Shown here: in pieces, positions 7,455 to 47,140 of the stretch | How positions within the stretch are numbered: the stretch's first letter is position 1 | Layout of the letters: each line of letters opens with the position of its first letter | Assembly: GCF_002844235.1 (NCBI RefSeq) | Contig: NZ_PGTS01000002.1 | Location: forward strand, 372,001 to 436,000 | Direction of reading: 5' to 3' | Length of the DNA: 64,000 nt | Source: Thalassospira povalilytica | GTDB taxonomy: Bacteria; Pseudomonadota; Alphaproteobacteria; Rhodospirillales; Thalassospiraceae | Made by a program: the position numbers and the translations under genes | The notes under the pieces: generated by a model | What the model saw: only the letters and a program-made list of their open reading frames with translations | Told to the model about the DNA's origin: nothing | Databases searched by the model: none

Positions 7455-8663
7455 TTATTTCGATGCCAGGCTGCAACCGCTTTCGGCCGGATCGATGAAG
7501 GCCTTGTTGCCAGGAACGGTATCAAGGATGTTGTAGTAGTCCCAGTCGCCCGTCATTTGTTCTGGCGATTTTACTTCCATCAGATACATGTCGTAAATCA
7601 TGCGGCCGTTGGCGCCGACCTTGCCATTGTTGGCAAAAACGTCATTGACCGGCATTTCATGCAGGGCCTTGGCGACAGCTTCGGTTTCGTCAGTGCCGGT
7701 TTTATCAATGGCCTTGAGATACTGAAGAACTGCCGAATAGGTGCCAGCCTGAATCATGTTTGGCATACGACCCGTGCGGTCAAAGAAGCGTTTGCCAAAT
7801 TCGCGGGTTTCGTCATTACGATCCCAATAGAAACCCTCAGTCAGGGTCAGACCCTGGGATGCCTTGGCACCCAGACCATGGACTTCTGCAAGCGTAAAGA
7901 GCAAGGCAGCCAGTCGCTGGCCGCTCTGTACGATACCGAATTCCGATGCCTGTTTGATCGCGTTGGCGGTATCAAGACCAGCATTGGCAAGGCCAATAAC
8001 TTTTGCCCCGGATGCCTGTGCCTGAAGCAGGAAGGAGGAATAGTCGTTCGTTCCAAGAGGATGACGGACTGAACCCGATACGGTGCCGCCGCTTTCCTTT
8101 ACAAAGTTACCGGTCTGTTCTTCGAGTGAATAGCCAAACGCGTAATCGGCAGTAAGAAAGAACCAGCTGTCTCCACCGTTATTGACCAGTGCGCCGCCGG
8201 TGCCAACAGCAAGTGCGTGCGTGTCATATGCCCAGTGGAAACCGTACGGGGAACATTGTTCGCCTGTCAGTGCCGTAGTTGCCGCACCGGTAACGATATC
8301 GATCTTTTTCTTTTCTTTTGAAATGCCTTGCACGGCAAGTGCGACCGAAGACGTCGTCAATTCCATGATGGCATCAACTTGGTCCTGATCATACCATTGA
8401 CGTGCAATGTTGGCCGCAACATCAGGCTTGTTCTGATGGTCAGCTGTAATGACTTCAACCGGCTTTCCCTGAACGGTGCCGCCGAAATCTTCAACGGCCA
8501 TTTTGGCTGCTTCGAATGACCAGACACCGCCGAAGTCGGCATAGACGCCCGACTGATCATTGAGAATGCCGATCTTGACGACGTCATCTGAAATCTCGGC
8601 ATGGGCGGGCAGTGCAGCGGCTGCTGCCATAATTGCAACCGATGCAATCGTGAACTTCTTCAT
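7455..8663 (-). CDS. Periplasmic substrate-binding protein of the LIV-type ABC importer
   Basis: This 402-residue protein has a clear signal peptide (hydrophobic stretch to ALPAHA, predicted cleavage after residue 22). The mature protein has the Peripla_BP_6 fold, beginning with VVKIGILNDQSGVYADFGG. Proteins of this fold bind amino acids, amides, short-chain acids or aromatic acids and deliver them to LivHM. The YYNILDTVPGNKAF ending is typical of the longer, non-leucine members, so leucine is not the obvious ligand. GGGAGGA precedes the ATG. It is the first gene of the operon and is expected to be its most abundant product. The promoter must lie in 8664-8915, shared with the divergent LysR gene. 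Confidence 0.88.
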   Translation of the reverse strand: MKKFTIASVAIMAAAAALPAHAEISDDVVKIGILNDQSGVYADFGGVWSFEAAKMAVEDFGGTVQGKPVEVITADHQNKPDVAANIARQWYDQDQVDAIMELTTSSVALAVQGISKEKKKIDIVTGAATTALTGEQCSPYGFHWAYDTHALAVGTGGALVNNGGDSWFFLTADYAFGYSLEEQTGNFVKESGGTVSGSVRHPLGTNDYSSFLLQAQASGAKVIGLANAGLDTANAIKQASEFGIVQSGQRLAALLFTLAEVHGLGAKASQGLTLTEGFYWDRNDETREFGKRFFDRTGRMPNMIQAGTYSAVLQYLKAIDKTGTDETEAVAKALHEMPVNDVFANNGKVGANGRMIYDMYLMEVKSPEQMTGDWDYYNILDTVPGNKAFIDPAESGCSLASK

Positions 8664-8823
8664 CTAGATTCCTCCCTGATGGAATGAAGTATCCGTCGTC
8701 AAGAATGCGACAACGGACTGTAGGACGTTGTTTGACTGCACATTTTTGTTATGGGTGGACGCAAGTGAAATGTGTCAGTCAAGTATCTGAATTATTGGTA
8801 GTTTTTGTTAGTTTGATTTGGTT

Positions 8824-8839
8824 ATTCAGAACTTTGAAT
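8824..8839. promoter_or_regulatory. Candidate LysR-type binding site between divergent genes
   Basis: ATTCA-N6-TGAAT is a perfect inverted repeat that also contains T-N11-A, the core of LysR-family boxes. It sits 77 bases before the lysR-type gene and about 160 bases before the binding-protein gene, in an AT-rich 252-base intergenic region. Its assignment to this regulator is an inference. Confidence 0.35.
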
Positions 8840-8915
8840 TACGATAACATTGACCAAAACACCTTCAAATATATAATTTTGGACAATGATTGTACAAAAA
8901 TGAACAGGTCGGTGG

Positions 8916-9830
8916 ATGCGTCAATTCTCCTGGGATGATTTGCAGTATTTTCTCGCAGTTGCACAAGAAGGCAAGCTGTCTGCGGCGGCACGCCGGTTGC
9001 GCACCAGCCACGTAACGGTTGCCCGGCGCATTGACCGCCTTGAAGAAGGTATCGGCGCCAAATTGTTTCAACGAAGCGGAACGGGCTATACCCTGACTTT
9101 CATGGGGGAAAAGCTGATGGAGCCGGCCCGGGCGATGTCGATTGAAGCCGACAAGATGCTTGGTGTCGTCGGCGAGGGTACAATACCGCTAAGCGGGGTG
9201 ATCCGGCTAAGTGTTCCGGAAGGATTCGGGAGTTTCTTCATCGCAGACAGGCTTCCGCACTTCGCGTCGCAACATCCGAACCTGACCATTGAAATGGTCA
9301 ATATTCAGCAAATTGTTTCTCTTTCCCGGCGCGAAGCGGACATTTCGATTTCGCTTAATACGCCAAAGGCGGGGGCATACTATTTTGAAAAGATCTGCAG
9401 CTATATACTCTATATCTATGCATCCAAGGATTACCTGAAACAGCACGGCAAAATCGAACGAAGATCGGATTTGGCGAAGCATCCTTTTATTGGCTATATC
9501 GAAGACATGATCTTTACACCCGAACTGAACTATTTGGGTGAGATCGTCCCCGGATTGCGGCCGTCCTATCAAACGTCAAGCGTGTTTGCGCAGGCCAAGG
9601 CGTGTCGTGCGGGGTACGGGTTATGTGTCCTGCCATATTATATGGGCAACATGTTTGATGATATTGTTGCGGTGATGCCCCACAGCATTCCAATCCATCG
9701 GGACTATTTTCTGGTGTGTCACAATGACGTAATTGACGCTGCGCGTATTCGACCACTCATTGATTTTATTCGGGCTGAAACAGCAAAATCGAATGACTGG
9801 TTTGCCGGTTTCCCCAGCCAATTTGTTTAA
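8916..9830 (+). CDS. LysR-family transcriptional regulator
   Basis: This 304-residue regulator has an N-terminal winged helix-turn-helix (residues about 5-62; recognition region AARRLRTSHVTVARRIDRLE) and a LysR-type co-inducer domain from about residue 90. It is divergent from the ABC importer operon with a shared 252-base promoter region, the classical arrangement for a LysR protein controlling the neighbouring transport genes in response to the transported compound. The N-terminus lacks extra sequence and the length is typical. No ligand-specific residues can be assigned by eye. Control of the adjacent operon is an inference from position only. Confidence 0.85.
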   Translation: MRQFSWDDLQYFLAVAQEGKLSAAARRLRTSHVTVARRIDRLEEGIGAKLFQRSGTGYTLTFMGEKLMEPARAMSIEADKMLGVVGEGTIPLSGVIRLSVPEGFGSFFIADRLPHFASQHPNLTIEMVNIQQIVSLSRREADISISLNTPKAGAYYFEKICSYILYIYASKDYLKQHGKIERRSDLAKHPFIGYIEDMIFTPELNYLGEIVPGLRPSYQTSSVFAQAKACRAGYGLCVLPYYMGNMFDDIVAVMPHSIPIHRDYFLVCHNDVIDAARIRPLIDFIRAETAKSNDWFAGFPSQFV

Positions 9831-38166: not shown

Positions 38167-38964
38167 ATGTTTAAAACTCTTGGCAAGCTTGCGATTGCAA
38201 GTGCCTGTTTCGCGTTCGCGTCACAAAGTGCGCACGCCCATTTTCAATTGGCCTATACACCGGAAGTCAATGTGACCGCCCCCGGCGAACTGCCGGTGAA
38301 ACTGATATTCTGGCATCCGTTCGAAAACGGACATGTCATGGATATGAAAAAGCCGGTGGCGTTTTACGCAATCCATCGCGGTGATAAAATTGATTTATCT
38401 TCAACGCTTTCTGAGGTGACCTTCACAGGGAAGGAGAATACCGCCAAGGCGTATGACGGTACTTTGACCCTTAAGCGCAGTGGCGATTACGTGATGGTGG
38501 TGGTGCCCGAACCCTATTACGAAGAAAGCGAAGATATCTTCATTCAGCAGATCACCAAGTCCTATGTGAACCGCAACGAAATCCCGACCGACTGGATGGA
38601 GGCACAGGGACTTGTGACCGAAATTCTGCCGTTAAACCGGCCGACCAACATTGTCGCAGGTTCGACCTTTACCGGTCGTGTGCTGAGTAATGGTGAACCG
38701 GTATCCGGGGTCGAGGTTGAAATCGAATATATGGCAGCCGAACCCGATATGGACCGTAACGCGCCCAAGGAACCGACAGCAGGACCGATGCCCGGTGGGG
38801 CGATTGTCGCGATTACCGATGCCAACGGGTATTTTACGTTCGGGATCCCCAAGGCCGGATTTTGGGGTTTTGCGGCCCTTGGCAGTGGGCCGGACAAAGA
38901 ATTTCAGGGAAAAGAGCTTTCACAGGATGCAGTCCTGTGGGTTCGCGCCTATGATGTGCAATAG
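38167..38964 (+). CDS. Periplasmic DUF4198 protein (NikK-like) of the cobalt/nickel importer
   Basis: This 265-residue exported protein has a signal peptide ending SAHA, so the mature form should begin HFQLAY (His25). DUF4198 proteins, called NikK in nickel ECF systems, are beta-rich periplasmic partners of NikM/CbiM-type importers and are thought to deliver or help bind the metal. Other features are FWHPFENGHVMDMKKP, a possible metal-ligand cluster with His and Met, and a C-terminal Ig-like domain with VSGVEVEIEYM. The ATG at 38167 has AAGAGA upstream. As the first gene after the B12 riboswitch it is the leader of the K-M-L-Q-O operon. A homologue is encoded at 44042-44827. Confidence 0.85.
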   Translation: MFKTLGKLAIASACFAFASQSAHAHFQLAYTPEVNVTAPGELPVKLIFWHPFENGHVMDMKKPVAFYAIHRGDKIDLSSTLSEVTFTGKENTAKAYDGTLTLKRSGDYVMVVVPEPYYEESEDIFIQQITKSYVNRNEIPTDWMEAQGLVTEILPLNRPTNIVAGSTFTGRVLSNGEPVSGVEVEIEYMAAEPDMDRNAPKEPTAGPMPGGAIVAITDANGYFTFGIPKAGFWGFAALGSGPDKEFQGKELSQDAVLWVRAYDVQ

Positions 38965-38981
38965 GCTTGGGGACAAAATAG

Positions 38982-39656
38982 ATGCATATTGTTGACGGGG
39001 CACTGGCCCCAGAGGTGCTGATTGGCGGTGGCGTGCTTGCAGTCGCGGGGCTTGGCCTTGGATTGCGCAAACTGCCAATCGATAAAATTCCGGCGACGGG
39101 GGTGTTGTCGGCGACGTTCTTCGTCGCCTCCCTGATCCACGTGCCGGTCGGTCCGTCGAGCGTGCATCTGATTATGAGTGGCCTGGCCGGGCTTGTGCTT
39201 GGCTGGACCGCATTCCCGGCACTTTTTGTCGGGCTTTTGTTGCAGGCCATCTTTTTCGGATTTGGCGGTTTGACTGTATTGGGGGTCAATACCGTCAATA
39301 TTGCGTTTCCTGCGGTGATTGCCGGTTTCATGTTTCGCGGATTGGTGTCGCGAAGCAATCCAACCTTTGCGGCAATCTGGGGCGGGTGTGCCGGTGCGCT
39401 TTCAATTGCGCTGACCACCTTGTTCGTGGCCATTTCCCTTGGTCTGAGCGGGGAAGGGTTTGTACCGGCGGCCAAGCTTGTTTTCTTTGCTCATATTCCA
39501 ATCATGGCGGTCGAAGGTCTGGTGTCTGCAGCAGCGGTTTATCTGATCATGAAGGTCAAGCCGGCCTTGCTGATGGCCGATGCCCGGATCAGCCGATATG
39601 ACGCACAAAGCCCCGCGATCCTGGCCGAACAGGTGAACGAGGCCAACAATGGCTAA
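38982..39656 (+). CDS. cbiM: Cobalt/nickel ECF transporter S component CbiM
   Basis: This 224-residue membrane protein has about seven hydrophobic segments and begins MHIVDGALAP. In CbiM/NikM the second-position His of the free N-terminus is a metal ligand buried in the membrane, so this motif strongly supports a metal role. Further motifs are GPSSVHLIMSGLAGLVLGW, with the conserved inner His, and ALFVGLLLQAIFFGFGGLTV. The length corresponds to CbiM alone, without a fused CbiN. Its stop overlaps the next gene by eight bases. The B12 riboswitch indicates cobalt as the main substrate. Confidence 0.95.
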   Translation: MHIVDGALAPEVLIGGGVLAVAGLGLGLRKLPIDKIPATGVLSATFFVASLIHVPVGPSSVHLIMSGLAGLVLGWTAFPALFVGLLLQAIFFGFGGLTVLGVNTVNIAFPAVIAGFMFRGLVSRSNPTFAAIWGGCAGALSIALTTLFVAISLGLSGEGFVPAAKLVFFAHIPIMAVEGLVSAAAVYLIMKVKPALLMADARISRYDAQSPAILAEQVNEANNG

Positions 39657-40266
39657 GCTTGCAACAGGAGTGTTTCTGGCAGGCCTTCTGTTCGGAATGC
39701 AGGCCGCCCAGGCCCATAAGGTGATTGCATCGGTTTTTCCGAGCGGCACAGCTGTCGAAGGGGAGATCGGGTTTTCCAATGGCGATATGGCTGCGGACAC
39801 GCTGGTCGAAGTTTTCGACCGGCAGGGAAACAAGATCGATGAAATCAGAACGGATGCTGACGGTTTCTTTGTCTATACGCCAAGCCGGAAAGTTGACCTT
39901 GTCTTTCGGGCCGATCTGGGGGCAGGGCATGTTGCAGAAGCCAGTTTTGATATTGCCGACCTGACGGGAATTTCAGGGCCAGGCAGCATTGCCGCAGTTT
40001 CTTCGGATGATAGCGCTAACATCACTGTGGATGGGGCAGTTGTCGGGGATAATGCAACCAAAACTGCAATCACCCGCGAACAGGAAGAAGTCATTGCCGC
40101 GATCGTTCGTGATGAATTGCGGCCATTGCGTCGGGAAATTACCGCCTACAAGGAAAAGAACGATCTTCAATCGATTCTGGGCGGTATTGGTTATATATTC
40201 GGGTTCTTCGGGATTGCCTATTATCTGGCAGCAAGACGTTTGAGAGCCAAAGCAACCAAATCATGA
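39649..40266 (+). CDS. NikL-like accessory protein of the cobalt/nickel ECF importer
   Basis: This 205-residue protein has a signal peptide ending AAQA, so the mature N-terminus is HKVIAS (His23). A beta-sandwich, carboxypeptidase-regulatory-like domain spans about 25-100 (EGEIGFSNGDMAADTLVEVF). It is followed by a helical region (EEVIAAIVRDELRPLRREI) and one C-terminal membrane segment (about 178-196, ILGGIGYIFGFFGIAYYLAA). This architecture is that of NikL, which takes the place of CbiN in KMLQO systems. It overlaps cbiM by eight bases and cbiQ by four, so it is an integral part of the operon. A homologue is encoded at 43302-43952. Confidence 0.85.
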   Translation: MAKLATGVFLAGLLFGMQAAQAHKVIASVFPSGTAVEGEIGFSNGDMAADTLVEVFDRQGNKIDEIRTDADGFFVYTPSRKVDLVFRADLGAGHVAEASFDIADLTGISGPGSIAAVSSDDSANITVDGAVVGDNATKTAITREQEEVIAAIVRDELRPLRREITAYKEKNDLQSILGGIGYIFGFFGIAYYLAARRLRAKATKS

Positions 40267-41060
40267 GCCATCTTTTCGGGCATGACCAACCATTAAGCGT
40301 TCAGGGAGGCGGGCAACGACCGTCTTCCTTTGTCGGATCGTTTGATCCGCGTGTTCGGGTGGTGGCGGCCGGTCTGTTTTCGGTGATGGTCGTTTCCCTG
40401 CATCAGATCGAATTCGCGCTTGCTGCCTTTTTTGCGGCAGTGGCGACGATGTTCATGACTGATTTGCCATTGCGTCTGACCCTGAAACGTATGGCAGCAA
40501 TGGACGGGTTCATCATCGTGATGCTGGTGATGTTGCCATTCACAACGCCGGGAACCGCCATGTTTACCGTCCTGGGTGCCGAGGCCAGCAAGGAAGGATT
40601 GCAACATGCGGTCCTGATCGGCATTCGCGCCAATGCGGTTGTTTTGATGATGCTTAGCCTGCTTGCCGGGTTAACGCCGGTGGGACTTGGGCATACATTA
40701 TACCGGCTGCGTTGCCCAGCAGCCCTGGTGCATCTCATGATGTTTACGGTGCGCTATATTTCGGTTCTTCATGATGAATATCATCGACTGCGCATGGCCA
40801 TGAAATTGCGTGGCTTCAAGGCGCGCAACAGCATTCATACCTATCGGTCGCTGGGGTATCTTTTCGGGATGTTGCTTGTCAGGTCCCTTGAACGTGCCGA
40901 ACGGGTTCTTGAGGCCATGAAATGCCGCGGATTTAGTGGCCATTTCCCGATGATTGATCATCTTGTGTTCCGGCAACGTGATGCCCTTTTCGGGGTGGGG
41001 TTTCTGATGCTGGTTTCCGTGTTTGTTATTCTGGATCGTTTTTATGTCGTCGCTTATTGA
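40263..41060 (+). CDS. cbiQ: Cobalt/nickel ECF transporter T component CbiQ
   Basis: This 265-residue membrane protein has five or six hydrophobic segments. The two coupling motifs that contact the ATPase are present: AMKLRGFKAR (about 181-190) and EAMKCRGFSGHF (about 218-229), the Ala-Arg-Gly-type helices of EcfT proteins. An FDPRVRVVAAGLFSV start is typical. It connects CbiM to the ATPase in the energy-coupling module. It overlaps the NikL-like gene by four bases (ATGA) and cbiO by 17. Confidence 0.95.
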   Translation: MSHLFGHDQPLSVQGGGQRPSSFVGSFDPRVRVVAAGLFSVMVVSLHQIEFALAAFFAAVATMFMTDLPLRLTLKRMAAMDGFIIVMLVMLPFTTPGTAMFTVLGAEASKEGLQHAVLIGIRANAVVLMMLSLLAGLTPVGLGHTLYRLRCPAALVHLMMFTVRYISVLHDEYHRLRMAMKLRGFKARNSIHTYRSLGYLFGMLLVRSLERAERVLEAMKCRGFSGHFPMIDHLVFRQRDALFGVGFLMLVSVFVILDRFYVVAY

Positions 41061-41781
41061 ACTAAACGATATTTCATACGGATACCGCGCCGGGCAAAAT
41101 GTTCTGGACCGTGTCAGCCTGTCGCTTGAGGCCAATGAAAGATTGTTCATTACTGGTCCGAATGGGGCTGGCAAAAGCACGTTGTTGCGCATTCTGGTCG
41201 GTCTGATCAAACCGTTTGGCGGCGAAATCAGGGCGTTTGGAATACCGCGTGTAACGGACAAGGATTTCCATGATCTGCGCTGTCGGGTCGGGTTTATTGT
41301 CCAGGACCCCGATGATCAGCTGTTTTGTCCGACCGTGGTCGAAGATATCGCTTTTGGTCCGCTTAATCTTGGGGCCAGCCGCGAAGAGGCACTGGCGATT
41401 GTTGACGAGGTTCTTGATCAACTTCATCTCAGACATTTGCGCGAACGCATCACCCACGAGCTTTCAGGCGGGGAAAAGAGGCTGGTTTCTGTGGCGGCGG
41501 TTCTTGCCATGAAGCCCGATGTTCTTTTGCTTGATGAGCCGACGAACGCGCTGGACGAAGAAAACCTTCACCGGCTTGAGGAGATCTTGCTGGAACTGCC
41601 GCAAGCCATGATTCTGGTGTCGCATGACCCGCATTTCCGCCGGAAACTGGCTACCCGGACGCTGGAGTTGCGCGCCGGGAAAATGTCGCAGGCCAAGGAA
41701 CTTGCACCAAAAAAATGTACCGCATCCGATCGCGCCCGGCAAAATGCCAAGGCCGATGATCATTCATTTGAAAGTCTTTGA
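41044..41781 (+). CDS. cbiO: Cobalt/nickel ECF transporter ATPase CbiO
   Basis: This 245-residue ATPase has Walker A GPNGAGKSTLLRILVGLI, a Q-loop with VGFIVQDPDDQLFCPTVVED, which is the CbiO-type sequence, the signature LSGGEKRLVSVAAVLA and Walker B VLLLDEPTNALD. I use the ATG at 41044 because the earlier in-frame start lies deep within cbiQ. The C-terminal 30 residues after the switch His are Lys- and Ala-rich and not conserved. It energises CbiMQ. The NreB-like gene begins 48 bases after its stop. Confidence 0.94.
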   Translation: MSSLIELNDISYGYRAGQNVLDRVSLSLEANERLFITGPNGAGKSTLLRILVGLIKPFGGEIRAFGIPRVTDKDFHDLRCRVGFIVQDPDDQLFCPTVVEDIAFGPLNLGASREEALAIVDEVLDQLHLRHLRERITHELSGGEKRLVSVAAVLAMKPDVLLLDEPTNALDEENLHRLEEILLELPQAMILVSHDPHFRRKLATRTLELRAGKMSQAKELAPKKCTASDRARQNAKADDHSFESL

Positions 41782-41828
41782 CGGTTTAAGATAGGGTGTA
41801 AGGCGACACACAGCCCGGATGCCCCAAC

Positions 41829-43292
41829 ATGTCGCCATTTTCCATTTCGGCCTTTCGACATCTTTTTGCTGCCCAGATCACGTCCCTGATCGGGACAGGA
41901 TTAACCACGGTCGCCCTGTCACTTCTGGCGTTTGATCTGGCCGGGGCGGATGCGGGACGGGTATTGGGATCCATTCTGGTTTTGAAGATGGTCGCGTATC
42001 TGGTGATCGCCCCGATTGCCGGTGGGATGGCGCATTTGTTGCCGCGCCGGACATGGCTTGTCGGGCTTGATATCTTGCGTGCTGCAATTGTTCTGTGTTT
42101 GCCCTTTGTCGATCAGATCTGGCAGATTTTTGTTCTGGTCTTTGTTGTCAATGCCGCGTCAGCCGCGTTCACACCGGTCTTTCAGGCCATTATCCCGGAA
42201 ATTCTCGAAGATGAGAAATCCTATACCAAGGGCCTTTCCTATGCCCGCTTGGCCTATGATCTGGAAAACCTGATCAGTCCGGCACTTGCAGCCGCCTTGT
42301 TGTTCGTCTGGTCGTTTGACAGTCTGTTTATCGTCAACAGCCTGACATTTGCACTTTCGGCCGCTCTGATTGTGACAACAACAGTGCCGCGCGCCGCCGC
42401 GACGGATCGCGAAGGCGGCATTTACGCCAATACGCGGTTTGGGGTGGTGGCATATCTTAAAACACCAAGGCTACGCGGACTTCTGGCCGTTCATTTTGCG
42501 GTTTCCTGCGTCGGGGCGATGATCATCGTCAATACGGTTGTTTTGACGCGGTCGATCCTTGGCGGGTCTGAAATCCTGACCACGGTGTTTCTTGCCTGTG
42601 CCGGTGGCGGATCAATGGTTGCGGCATTCGTCATGCCCAAGATCATTGATACAGTGGGTGAACGCCGATTGATGATGGCCGGAATTGTCGCCGCATCCCT
42701 GGCGATGGTGGCAGGTGCCGTGATCATGAGGGCGGGCATTCGCGATGTTGCCGCCTTTGCGCTGCTTTGGGTGTTTGCCGGGGCCGGAACCACATTTGCG
42801 CAGACGCCAGGTGGACGGTTGGTACAACGATCAGCCGGTGCAGGGGATCGTTCCGCATTCTTTGCCGCCAATTTTGCACTGTCGCATGGTGGATGGTTGA
42901 TTGCATATGGGGTAATTGGATGGATTGGCAGTCTGGCCGATATTTCGGTAGCGTTCTGGGTGTCGGGCGGGCTTGCATTTTGCTGTGCTGTGATGGCGCG
43001 CGTTCTTTGGCCCAAACAAGACCAGCTTGAACTTCAGCACAGCCATCCCGGTTTCTGGCATGAACATCCCCACGATCATGCCGATGAACACCATGGACAT
43101 GTCCATCCCGCCGAAGCAGCCGCGACGTCGTCGAACGATGCAAAGCATCATGATGACGGTCACCAGCACGCGGAAGAAGACCGGTCAAAGCACCGGCACC
43201 GCCATTATCATCCGCCGGTCAGCCACAAACATCGCTTCGTGATTGACAGTCACCATACCCGCTGGCCGGTGGAAAGTGGTGAAATGGTCTGA
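41829..43292 (+). CDS. NreB-like MFS nickel/cobalt exporter with His-rich tail
   Basis: This 487-residue protein has a twelve-segment MFS core (about 1-398) and an 88-residue cytoplasmic tail with 22 His, including HEHPHDHADEHHGHVH and KHRHRHYH. The core (FRHLFAAQITSLIGTGLTTV near the start) resembles NreB and related efflux pumps that give nickel resistance; their His tails bind metal. The gene lies 48 bases after cbiO in the same direction, with no terminator between, so it may be cotranscribed with the importer under B12 control or may have its own promoter. No strong ribosome site is seen before the ATG. The metal is inferred (Ni or Co). Confidence 0.85.
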   Translation: MSPFSISAFRHLFAAQITSLIGTGLTTVALSLLAFDLAGADAGRVLGSILVLKMVAYLVIAPIAGGMAHLLPRRTWLVGLDILRAAIVLCLPFVDQIWQIFVLVFVVNAASAAFTPVFQAIIPEILEDEKSYTKGLSYARLAYDLENLISPALAAALLFVWSFDSLFIVNSLTFALSAALIVTTTVPRAAATDREGGIYANTRFGVVAYLKTPRLRGLLAVHFAVSCVGAMIIVNTVVLTRSILGGSEILTTVFLACAGGGSMVAAFVMPKIIDTVGERRLMMAGIVAASLAMVAGAVIMRAGIRDVAAFALLWVFAGAGTTFAQTPGGRLVQRSAGAGDRSAFFAANFALSHGGWLIAYGVIGWIGSLADISVAFWVSGGLAFCCAVMARVLWPKQDQLELQHSHPGFWHEHPHDHADEHHGHVHPAEAAATSSNDAKHHDDGHQHAEEDRSKHRHRHYHPPVSHKHRFVIDSHHTRWPVESGEMV

Positions 43293-43301
43293 TTGCGGTT
43301 G

Positions 43302-43952
43302 TTAGACAGATGTCTGTTTACGGGCGCGGACCCACGCCAAGATTCCGAAAATACCAATAATCACACCGATGCCGCCCATGATATCGGACATACGAACATC
43401 ATTGCGATAGGCGTTTACTTCCTCGCGAAGCGGGCCGATCTGTCGTGCGACGGCATGATTGATCAAGCTGGTCAATTCGTCGCGCGTCAGGGCCTTTAGC
43501 CCGATTGGGGCGGTTGCCGATGATGACGGCGTGGTCATGGTCGGGGCGACCGCGGCATCGGGGGTGTTATCGGTCACAAAGCTTGCCGTGATGTCCGATG
43601 CATTTTTCGCGGGTGGAAGGTTTTCGGAAAACTCGTCCTCGGTCAGGGTGAATGTGGCGACATGACCATCGCCGGTATTGGCCTGAACGACATAGGGCGT
43701 CCGGTGGCTGACGCGGATAGCAAAGGCACCGTTTTGATCAGTGCGGGCCGCCGCCACTACCGCGCCATCATCGGCATGAAGTTCAATTTCAGCAGTACGG
43801 GCGCGCGTCCCGCCAGTGAAATAGACATATCCTTCAATAGTGTCGCCGGTGCTTATGGCAAAGACATTAAGGTTGTGGGCCTGTGCGGCAGAAACGCCAA
43901 AAGCACAGAAAAGCAAAATGAAAAGACCAAAGCTGCGCAAACGACTTGTCAT
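43302..43952 (-). CDS. Second NikL-like accessory protein
   Basis: This protein of about 216 residues has a signal peptide ending AAQA and a mature start of HNLNVFAIS (His26). It has the same layout as the NikL-like protein of the cobalt operon: a beta-sandwich (DTIEGYVYFTGGTRARTAEI), a Ser/Thr-rich linker, a helix with ELTSLINHAVARQIGPLREE and a C-terminal membrane segment (about 190-208). The two proteins align best in the PLR(E/R)E and IMGGIG/ILGGIG regions. I use the ATG at 43952. It ends ten bases from the convergent NreB-like gene. No M, Q or O gene accompanies it, so it probably serves the nearby importer or an importer elsewhere. Confidence 0.8.
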   Translation of the reverse strand: MTSRLRSFGLFILLFCAFGVSAAQAHNLNVFAISTGDTIEGYVYFTGGTRARTAEIELHADDGAVVAAARTDQNGAFAIRVSHRTPYVVQANTGDGHVATFTLTEDEFSENLPPAKNASDITASFVTDNTPDAAVAPTMTTPSSSATAPIGLKALTRDELTSLINHAVARQIGPLREEVNAYRNDVRMSDIMGGIGVIIGIFGILAWVRARKQTSV

Positions 43953-44041
43953 GGGGGCAGGCCAATCGATTAAGGATGAATGCAATTTCAATAGCAGAAC
44001 TTACGAACGGGTAAGTGGCCCGGACCACTTACCCGCTGGGT

Positions 44042-44827
44042 TCAGTTCATCTGATCGGTTTTGACCCACAGCACACCGCCGCGTTCGACCGGAACCTGGC
44101 TGCCGCTGTCAGGTGCGGTCATTGTGCCGTCTTCGATCAAGGCTGCAAACACCCACCAACCTTCCTTGGGCATTGCATAATGGAAGATGCCATTCGCATC
44201 AGCTTTGATGACCTGTGTGGCAAAAGTCGCATTGGGAAGGGTGATACTGCCGTCACTGGCATATTCAACTTCAACTTCGGCAAAGGGAACAGGATCGCCA
44301 TTGTGGCGCACCATTCCGGAAAAGATATTGCCGGTCCAGATGCCGTACGGGCGCGTAAGGGGTTCTATTTCCACCGGGAATCCGACCATCTGGTCCCAGT
44401 CTTCACCGGAATCATAGGCATCAATGATGGTTTTGGTGTACTGGATAATGAACTTGCCTTCGGCCGGTTCAAAATACGGCACCGGTTCAAGATAGAAGGC
44501 ATATCCACCCGGTGCCTTCAAGGTGACCTCGGCGTTGAAGGCCGATTTTCCATCCACTGTTTTGGCTTCAAGACTTTGGCGCAAATCGATCTTTTGGTCA
44601 TTGTATTGCATGCCAAACTGAACTGGCGGTGCCATTTCCATTGCCGGACCATTGGTCATCGGATGGGTAAATGTCAGATCAAGCTTTACTGTGCGGCCGG
44701 TATTCTGATCGACCACATTGGTTGACGGAACCATCTTTTGGAAATGTGCCGATGCAGATGATGCGACGATTGATGTGAGAAGCAGTGACAATGATGCCTT
44801 TGAAAGCAACCGGGAGGCGAGGGACAT
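44042..44827 (-). CDS. Second periplasmic DUF4198 (NikK-like) protein
   Basis: This protein of about 261 residues has a signal peptide ending SASA and a mature start of HFQKMVPS (His28). It shares the order of segments with the protein at 38167-38964: DLTFTHPMTNGPAMEMAPP near residue 70, FYLEPVPYFEPAEGKFI and a C-terminal FAEVEVEYASDG domain. The THPM...MEM run of His and Met recalls metal-handling proteins. I start at the ATG at 44827; an upstream TTG extension is not supported. It leads a two-gene unit with the NikL-like gene. Overlapping palindromes at 44901-44932 lie in its promoter region. Confidence 0.82.
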   Translation of the reverse strand: MSLASRLLSKASLSLLLTSIVASSASAHFQKMVPSTNVVDQNTGRTVKLDLTFTHPMTNGPAMEMAPPVQFGMQYNDQKIDLRQSLEAKTVDGKSAFNAEVTLKAPGGYAFYLEPVPYFEPAEGKFIIQYTKTIIDAYDSGEDWDQMVGFPVEIEPLTRPYGIWTGNIFSGMVRHNGDPVPFAEVEVEYASDGSITLPNATFATQVIKADANGIFHYAMPKEGWWVFAALIEDGTMTAPDSGSQVPVERGGVLWVKTDQMN

Positions 44828-45089: not shown

Positions 45090-46580
45090 ATGGAAGTTAT
45101 CTACGTATCGCACGATGGCGGGACGCACTGGATTGATGCAAAGCAGCGCGAAACCAAAACGCTTGAGGTCGCAATCAGTCAAAGTCAGCCCGGACATCTT
45201 ATCCGGTTGATTGCCGGGACATACAATATAAGTCAGCCATTGCGTTTGCCGCGAAGTGGCACGGTCGATCAACCGATTGTTATTCGTGGCGATAGTGGTG
45301 TGGTCCTGGATGGCAACAGGGGCCCGGATGCGACCGTTTCGGCGACCAATCCGGGGGCGTCGCGGTTTGCAGTCTTCCAACTGATCGATGTTGATCATAT
45401 CCGCATCGAAGAAATTGTGATCCGGCGTGCGTGGCCATCAGCTGTGTATATTGAAAACAGCTGTGACCTTTCATTTGCCGGACTTGATATTTCCGATGGG
45501 ACCTATGCCTTTTATGCCAATGGTCCGCGCACCGAACGTATCCGTATCCGGGCCTGTCGATGGGTTCAGGATGTTGCGATCTGGCGCACCATTCGCTGGG
45601 ACGAAATCCATGACGGCAAAGATGAAGACGGCAATGTGATCAAGGTGCCGTATCGGTATCTTAACGGCGCATTTTTCGGATCGGATGATATTGCAGGCGA
45701 AGTCGAGATTTCAAATAACGACATTCGCGACTGTTATAACGGCATCAGGATGGATGTGTCGGCGGACAATGTTGGTGCGCCAGTCGGCACGTTTAATCGC
45801 GATGTTCGCATTCTCGATAACCGGTTTAGCTATATACGTGATAATCCCGTGGAACCCGAAGCGATCGCCGTCGGGTGGTGGATTGGCCGAAACCGGTTCT
45901 TTAATTGCCACAAGCTGTTTTCCCAGGACGGGGTCAGGGGTGGTTTCTGGTATTACTTTGGCAATATTTGCTGGTTTGACAGCCGCCCGGGACCCGAGGG
46001 GGACGAATATAACGGCGGTGCAGTATTCAAGCTGGGCAAAGGTGGAAGCGTACCTCAGCCCGACTATGTTTCGGCCTGCTTGCACAACAGTTTCTTCCTG
46101 CGGCAGAAATACATCAAAAAGGGCACCACACGCGGCTTGATCAATGCGCGCAACGCGATTGACCATGCGGACCCAACCGCTTTGCCCGATCAGATGATGC
46201 CACTTGATCAGTCCTTTCTGGGCAAGCAGGAAGATATTCAATTGTCGGCAAGTCCACCATTGCCGGTGCGGTTCGAAGGTGATCTGGCCAACCATCCGAC
46301 CTATCCAGCAGTATTCGATCCTTATGACGGGGTGCTTCATGATCCAAGACCAGCCGAAGGCCCGTTATTTGAAAACAGCTTGGCGGGGCAATTTGATTTG
46401 GCCGAATGTCATCGGGTTCCATATTCCTGCGGGTTGGAAATCCCGTTGCCGGATGGGACCACGTGGCATAGTCCGCGCGCGTATTGGCCCGGGGCGATTA
46501 CAAACGGGCGTGTTATATTCGGGCCGGAATATGTGCCGGTGGATATTGAATATGTTCGATCCTTGCCGATCCCGGGATAA
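45090..46580 (+). CDS. Right-handed beta-helix protein without signal peptide
   Basis: This 496-residue protein has the repeated short-strand pattern of pectate-lyase-like beta-helices: RIRACRWVQDVAIW, VEISNNDIRDCYNGIRMD, DVRILDNRFSYIRDNPVE and GRNRFFNCHKLFSQDG. The N-terminus contains GTYNISQPLRLPRSGTVDQP, the Asn/Pro-rich cap seen in DUF1565-type or Beta_helix proteins. There is no signal peptide, so it is not secreted by the general pathway. The last 100 residues look like a separate beta domain. No catalytic residues can be identified by eye; a polysaccharide- or glycan-related role is only a guess. The CAGGGG ribosome site precedes the ATG, and the next gene is a MerR regulator. Confidence 0.72.
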   Translation: MEVIYVSHDGGTHWIDAKQRETKTLEVAISQSQPGHLIRLIAGTYNISQPLRLPRSGTVDQPIVIRGDSGVVLDGNRGPDATVSATNPGASRFAVFQLIDVDHIRIEEIVIRRAWPSAVYIENSCDLSFAGLDISDGTYAFYANGPRTERIRIRACRWVQDVAIWRTIRWDEIHDGKDEDGNVIKVPYRYLNGAFFGSDDIAGEVEISNNDIRDCYNGIRMDVSADNVGAPVGTFNRDVRILDNRFSYIRDNPVEPEAIAVGWWIGRNRFFNCHKLFSQDGVRGGFWYYFGNICWFDSRPGPEGDEYNGGAVFKLGKGGSVPQPDYVSACLHNSFFLRQKYIKKGTTRGLINARNAIDHADPTALPDQMMPLDQSFLGKQEDIQLSASPPLPVRFEGDLANHPTYPAVFDPYDGVLHDPRPAEGPLFENSLAGQFDLAECHRVPYSCGLEIPLPDGTTWHSPRAYWPGAITNGRVIFGPEYVPVDIEYVRSLPIPG

Positions 46581-46637: not shown

Positions 46638-46702
46638 TATGTTGACTGGAATGTCGGAATGTTGCGATGTTGGCATATTGCAGTCAACAAACAAGAAAAA
46701 CC

Positions 46703-47140
46703 ATGAACGACAAGCTTTACAGCATTACAGAACTGGCCGAAGAGTTCGACATTACGCCACGCGCCATCCGGTTTTACGAAACCAAGAACCTGCTCGCACC
46801 GCAACGGGCCGGGGCGACGCGTGTCTATAATTATCGTGACCGGGCGCGGCTGATGCTTGTCCTTCGCGGCAAACGTCTTGGATTCTCGCTGGAAGATATC
46901 AAGGAATATATTGATCTCTATGATGCGGACCGCACCCGGACCGAGCAACTTGCACATTTGATGCTTGTCGGGCGGCGCAGGATTGCGGAACTCGAACAGC
47001 AACTTGAAGATGTTCAGACCACGCTTGCAGAGCTTCGCAAAATCGAAGGCGAGGCTGTCGAAAGCCTGCGTGAAAAGGGTATTGATCCGGAAAAGGCGGT
47101 CGCAGACATCAAGGCCAAACTGGTTGCCGAGGGCGCCTGA
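46703..47140 (+). CDS. MerR-family regulator (LiuR-like)
   Basis: This 145-residue protein has an N-terminal MerR winged helix (YSITELAEEFDITPRAIRFY, about 5-24, then ETKNLLAPQRAGATRVYNYR) and a long C-terminal coiled coil (RIAELEQQLEDVQTTLAELR). It lacks Cys residues, so it is not a mercury- or metal-type sensor, and the short form resembles LiuR-type regulators of branched-chain amino-acid or fatty-acid catabolism. Its targets are not in this window, except perhaps itself. The ATG at 46703 is preferred over an earlier start that lacks family similarity. A strong terminator follows at 47161-47195. Confidence 0.85.
   Translation: MNDKLYSITELAEEFDITPRAIRFYETKNLLAPQRAGATRVYNYRDRARLMLVLRGKRLGFSLEDIKEYIDLYDADRTRTEQLAHLMLVGRRRIAELEQQLEDVQTTLAELRKIEGEAVESLREKGIDPEKAVADIKAKLVAEGA

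Follow-up and report, generated by a model that had tools for sequence, protein, structure and literature searches.

A gene cluster in a 64,000-nucleotide stretch of Thalassospira povalilytica DNA (assembly GCF_002844235.1, contig NZ_PGTS01000002.1, positions 372,001 to 436,000 of the forward strand; hereafter the window) probably encodes a cobalt importer of the energy-coupling factor (ECF) class, led by a B12 riboswitch and of the KMLQO kind, with an extra pair of accessory proteins alongside. As judged from sequence, both kinds of accessory protein, the NikK-like K1 and K2 and the NikL-like L1 and L2, probably bind metal through a histidine that would become residue 1 of the mature chain (His1). 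A metal grip by such a histidine is already known for the family of K from published work, and we have not found the N-terminal site of L in print.

Conservation of the predicted N-terminal histidine in K and L

All four proteins begin with a hydrophobic signal peptide that ends in AxA and is followed directly by His, just as the initial annotation of this stretch had claimed. The predicted junctions, marked by a slash, read SQSAHA/HFQLAY in K1 (38167..38964, plus strand), MQAAQA/HKVIAS in L1 (39649..40266, plus strand), VSAAQA/HNLNVF in L2 (43302..43952, minus strand; taken from the ATG at 43952, the listed open frame running from a TTG at 43991) and ASSASA/HFQKMV in K2 (44042..44827, minus strand). 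K1 and K2 exceed the curated cut-off of PF10670 (DUF4198/NikK; 174.8 and 181.6 bits, cut-off 34, E 2.7e-53 for K2), and L1 and L2 exceed that of the NCBIfam NikL model NF058648 (185.4 and 170.3 bits, cut-off 100).

To describe conservation we used a main sample of 80 loci, selected from 223 confirmed relatives and gathered by two patterns, one of which includes a second histidine of L (GAGH) and neither of which includes His1; the KMLQO systems surveyed belong to Pseudomonadota. In an alignment built without any motif assumption, His fills the His1 column in 86/87 K and 87/88 L rows, both exceptions being gapped fragments without an N-terminus. This count replaced an earlier one made with a pattern that required "AH" and was circular. 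Wherever position -1 is present, it is occupied by Ala (86/86 K, 87/87 L); at -3, Ala occurs in 79 K rows and in 85 L rows, with Ser, Val or Gly in the others. Among columns conserved at 93% or more, a single further His appears in each family, corresponding to His26 of mature K1 (86 of 87 K rows, the missing row again a fragment) and His72 of L1 (88/88 L rows). The initial annotation had offered the conservation of His1 among NikK and NikL homologues in KMLQO operons as a test of its reading; the residue is conserved there, so that the reading, which is supported in part, passed this test without being refuted. The alignments thus indicate that the N-terminal His is under strong constraint in both families. 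The His1 codons lie at 38239-38241 in K1, 39715-39717 in L1, 43877-43875 in L2 and 44746-44744 in K2, and those of the second His at 38314-38316 (K1 His26), 39928-39930 (L1 His72, placed by alignment columns and an AlphaFold2 model), 43664-43662 (L2, mature His72) and 44665-44663 (K2, mature His28).

Predicted cleavage agrees with this in most open frames. With a crude home-made score that weights the -3/-1 residues, the top-ranking cut immediately preceded His in 63/85 K and 74/86 L open frames of the 80 loci, and in 28 of the remaining 34 a site two to three residues earlier scored best. We regard conservation as stronger evidence for His1 than this score. Signal-peptide-like open frames of the same loci that are neither K nor L have His at +1 in 2/218, 1/97 and 1/27 cases at three cut-offs, and the K and L frames at those cut-offs in 106/135, 90/114 and 40/45. 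The pattern is kept in both families down to 26% (L) and 37% (K) identity with the window protein.

Further samples gave a similar picture. Forty more stretches came from the same phylum, 20 of them from the class to which genome G162 belongs and 20 from a phylum sample together with the own genome. At E 1e-20, all 21 K rows and all 27 L rows there carry His1, the second His and Ala at -1, in searches with a profile (A3) that includes both His columns and has 7 of the 27 L rows among its members. At E 1e-5 the L count was 39/40. The exception, a NikL-like protein of stretch L180 (7330-8748), has Gln at both His1 and the second His, possibly a joint loss of one site. In a third set both His were present in 16 of 20 rows, at least four of the 16 known before (L201, L214, L215 and L218). 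Two of the other four rows are gapped at His1, one (L211, a long open frame) has Lys there, and one has Glu and Tyr in place of the pair; L217 of the same set carries Gly, not Ala, at -1. That L180 and the Glu/Tyr row, both remote relatives, lack the two His together fits these residues forming one shared site.

An alternative reading is that the signal peptide of L stays uncut and serves as an N-terminal anchor, giving the protein two membrane helices and leaving the His without a free amino terminus. In that case NikL would be topologically similar to CbiN/NikN, with His1 as just another residue on the periplasmic side. Cleavage here is a prediction, and the literature, cited throughout by accession and mostly for the parts of the text accessible to us, offers some encouragement to this idea: NikL is termed an integral membrane protein (PMC2868824), NikK and NikL are said to carry amino-terminal transmembrane segments (PMC545781), and CbiN/NikN possess two membrane segments (PMC2667541). 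However, Ala at -1 in 87/87 and at -3 in 85/87 L rows is the mark of signal peptidase I, for which an anchor has no need. Moreover, the His follows the site directly and without insertion, although the hydrophobic stretches before it differ. We therefore consider an uncut anchor unlikely.

Predicted metal sites of K, L and CbiM

For K, the proposal that the N-terminal His forms a metal site has a published counterpart. In a DUF4198 protein, Ni2+ is held by His1 and His18 with a dissociation constant of 18 nM (PMC12537917). The fold predicted for K is that of this Ni-bound protein (PDB 9GCB), a beta-sandwich, and the two align from residue 1. By analogy, K1 and K2 may bind metal through His1 in the same way. 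A single weak phmmer match between K1 and a CopC chain (E 0.37) covered the signal-peptide region and was not used.

For L, metal binding through His1 and the second His is a supported prediction, which draws on the alignments and on the AlphaFold2 model of L1, where His1 and His72 stand at the starts of two strands of an immunoglobulin (Ig)-like domain. A profile search of the PDB for a solved NikL gave Ig-like and CnaB-like repeats as best matches (E 0.0076 and 0.0083). Foldseek with L reached E 4.1e-3 at best, its third-ranked match being the copper protein CueP (E 6.9e-3, TM score 0.26), and VIA-align pointed to general Ig/MG1-like folds. Ang-1 and CopC were not among the structural matches listed for L, an absence that carries no weight. 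CopC as a parent of L1 and L2 was considered and dropped, no CopC family being among the Pfam matches at E 0.1. The accessible parts of PMC545781, PMC2667541, PMC2868824 and PMC5904137 contain no mention of an N-terminal His of K or L.

The third N-terminus in question is that of CbiM, the S component (38982..39656, plus strand; PF01891 E 5e-51, 173.9 bits), which reads MHIVDG as the initial annotation stated, with the His2 codon at 38985-38987. It matches PF01891, has His as residue 2 and is the sole PF01891 match of the genome. A start codon followed by His was seen in 100 of 106 CbiM-like frames and start-Ala-His in two (L169 and L179). The initiator Met is as a rule removed before Ala, so that His would again be residue 2 in these two if the rule applies to them. 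The frame of L151 reads Ile-Ala-His with an ATC codon, and three frames were left unclassified, namely that of L092 (MHIMDG by eye) and two pieces of the broken frame of L093. The latter, at 8222-8979 of a metagenome assembly, is split in two, reads MYIVDG and may reflect an assembly error. Substrate binding by NikM/CbiM involves its first two residues (PMC6828968, in the part accessible), and this N-terminal metal site is treated in PMC5037267 as well.

Probable metal assignment of the K-L pairs

A FastTree phylogeny of 59 of the 106 K rows (rows of L061-L116 omitted except six) separated K1 and K2 into two deep sides with support 100. The tree has long branches (L158, L152, L149, L172 and L170), and these two deep forks are all that we used. 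On the K1 side, Rfam detected a cobalamin riboswitch in the window, in 8/8 titled loci (of which only L052 is a tree row) and in 5/5 others (L143, L145, L152, L164 and L168), and NikR was absent from 7/7 other genomes searched. On the K2 side, Rfam gave no cobalamin riboswitch in 4/4 loci (L146, L151, L154 and L158), and NikR was present in 11 of 13 genomes, at a distance of no more than 1.5 kb from K or L in 7 of the 12 measured. From the riboswitch on one side and NikR on the other, K1 and L1 look like cobalt parts and K2 and L2 like nickel parts, with His1 common to both. A B12-box expression had picked 41/77 K1 and 1/8 K2 frames; it was too strict, since eight of the loci that it missed all have an Rfam cobalamin riboswitch, and its counts were not used. 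Two loci, L072 (titled Stygiobacter) and L081 (titled Enemella), contain alphaproteobacterial-looking operons and possibly represent contaminated assemblies; L072 groups with Magnetospirillum in the K tree.

K2 and L2 accompany the operon in at least six of the 80 loci (L039, L040, L044, L046, L047 and L049), some loci ending early. A third, more distant K-L pair is present in the own genome (C5; L163 7984-9902), with the N-termini AHEF and AHGA. It adjoins a divergent nikR gene (NikR_C E 2.7e-27) and an EamA-like transporter gene; CbiM, CbiQ and CbiO were not found in its 19 kb stretch. The window genome has urease and HupE and gave no NiFe hydrogenase match. In stretch L182 (4059-11886), a K (AHT) and a small L (AHF) are encoded next to ZnuA, an ATP-binding cassette (ABC) ATPase and an ABC-3 permease, and close to a TonB receptor, so the K-L pair seems to be a module for more than one kind of metal system. 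The same region holds DUF6162, DUF2271 and PepSY genes. L173, L174 and L175 resemble L182 by their reading frames; the Pfam annotation covers L182 and, of the other three, only the K of L173.

Linkage to the importer and proposed delivery of metal

Where an L is found at E 1e-20 (27 stretches), CbiM is present in 25 (not in L153 and L159) and K in 19, which suggests that L is tied to CbiM more closely than K is, some stretches being short. To our knowledge, metal ECF importers lack a classical solute-binding protein. We propose that signal peptides of two separate families, K and L, are cut exactly before His, and that the free amine and ring of His1, together with one further His (His26 in K1, His72 in L1), would form a site like a histidine brace. 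K, a soluble beta-sandwich, would most likely collect Co2+ in the periplasm. In L, a helical stalk would carry the Ig-like domain and end in a membrane helix at the C-terminus, a tether that would hold its His1 site close to CbiM. Standing in for CbiN, L would most likely present or gate Co2+ at CbiM, whose own site uses its first two residues. K2 and L2 would be a nickel-type pair that has no CbiM of its own. By operon linkage and analogy, hand-over from K to L to CbiM is a reasonable hypothesis, and we put forward the full relay tentatively. Equally tentative is a joint reading in which three N-terminal-amine sites (His1 of K, His1 of L and Met1-His2 of CbiM/NikM) form a chain whose first two members are exposed by cleavage. 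The K-L pair would then be a portable delivery module, joined also to NikR-linked and to ZnuABC-type zinc systems, and K2 and L2 might feed another metal to CbiMQO.

Several observations weigh against metal binding through His1 in both families and against delivery to CbiM. The crude score favours a cut elsewhere than before His in 22/85 K frames and 12/86 L frames. In the wider DUF4198 family an N-terminal His occurs in only 79% of members, and the protein studied was stabilised by Ni (+7.0 °C) and Zn (+4.6 °C) more than by Co (+4.0 °C), which leaves a cobalt selectivity of K1 unexplained (both from the accessible parts of PMC12537917). We found no structure of NikL and no binding data for it. 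K was not found in six of the 25 stretches with L and CbiM (L147, L150, L161, L162, L166 and L167), some stretches being short, so K is not always at hand. Neither K2/L2 nor the third pair has its own CbiM, and, as K2 and L2 also belong to a NikR-associated clade, the four proteins of the window may not all belong to a single relay. Finally, the proposed contact of CbiM with K or L has operon linkage as its basis.

K and L could instead owe the conservation of His1 to a role in buffering, sensing or storing metal in the periplasm without the importer, to which only shared regulation would link them. This would suit K2 and L2, given the single CbiM of the genome, as well as the third pair, next to nikR and an EamA-like transporter gene, and the His1 pairs beside a ZnuABC-type operon. 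It sits less well with the presence of CbiM in 25 of the 27 stretches that have L at E 1e-20 or better. NikK and NikL are also reported where NikN is absent (PMC2667541), and deletion of nikKLMQO in Synechocystis lowered hydrogenase to about one tenth and urease below detection, although the subunits were not separated (PMC5904137). We consider independence from the importer improbable. As for AxA-His being chance or a purely structural habit of signal peptide junctions in such genomes, AxA is the commonest cleavage motif and AxA-H is thus to be expected by chance, but with His at +1 in only 2 of 218 control frames and the pattern kept in divergent members of both families, the counts make this very unlikely. 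Binding through His1 in both K and L is thus the reading that we retain as probable. Should NikL prove to be a second metal protein of the His1 kind, KMLQO importers would possess two periplasmic sites dedicated to metal, and a single residue change could disable either one, making delivery directly testable; the solved relative of K (9GCB) makes such tests easy to set up.

Organization of the locus

The cobalamin riboswitch (RF00174, 37802..37994, plus strand; Rfam 111.8 bits, gathering 31.5, E 6.3e-28) lies 5' of K1 and is followed in order by K1, CbiM, L1, CbiQ, CbiO and a gene for a major facilitator superfamily (MFS) transporter, with K2 and L2 on the opposite strand. L1 is thus encoded with CbiM, CbiQ and CbiO, and L2 adjoins the cobalt operon without an MQO set of its own. 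CbiQ, the T component (40263..41060, plus strand), matches PF02361 (E 3.9e-34). CbiO, the ATPase (41044..41781, plus strand), matches PF00005 (E 2.8e-30) and TIGR01166 (E 3.4e-52, under that model's own cut-off); its start was placed at an internal ATG, the listed open frame starting with TTG at 41023.

The MFS transporter (41829..43292, plus strand; PF07690 E 5.7e-30) has a strongly His-rich C-terminal tail, and its gene starts 47 bases 3' of cbiO and has homologues in 14 of the 80 loci. It is possibly on the cbiO transcript, and the protein could be a cobalt exporter or balancing pump. Divergent from K2 lies a gene for a right-handed beta-helix protein (PF13229, window 45090-46580). Beyond it is a MerR-family regulator (window 46667-47140), nearest to ZntR yet under the cut-off of that model; in Haemophilus, NikLMQO is regulated by the MerR-type NimR (PMC7055735, in the part accessible).

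Comparison with known systems

The proposed arrangement of L has a parallel in the Ang-1 and Ang-2 "anglerase" domains of HupE/UreJ-type permeases, which are likewise exported His1 domains tethered at a metal permease, and Ang-1 has an Ig-like fold, as is predicted for L (accessible parts of PMC12537917). However, the Ang domains are fused to the permease and Ang-1 has a mono-histidine brace with Asn, whereas NikL forms a subunit of its own and keeps a second His. Zcp (PDB 9MHI-9MHO), at 18% identity, was compared by entry titles only, and a literature search on Zcp found no paper.

IsDUF4198 of Ideonella sakaiensis (PDB 9GCB, PMC12537917) resembles K in its PF10670 match, in having His1 after a signal peptide and in one further conserved His, and its chain is titled "Nickel ECF transporter, additional periplasmic component NikK". 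The main text of that paper lacks the terms NikL, ECF and CbiM, and the paper cites Ni/Co ABC transporter operons. In contrast to IsDUF4198, which prefers Ni, K1 lies under a cobalamin riboswitch.

The five subunits encoded here are the same as those of the NikKMLQO/NikKLMQO ECF transporters (accessible parts of PMC545781, PMC2667541, PMC2868824 and PMC5904137). A 2004 paper put forward NikK and NikL as components of the periplasm with a possible role in nickel binding (PMC545781), and Zhang et al. (2009, PMC2667541) described riboswitch-linked KMLQO systems in five proteobacteria as well as orphan NikK and NikL. What sets the present locus apart from the NikKMLQO transporters is that a nickel-type pair, K2 and L2, without its own CbiM, accompanies the cobalt operon.

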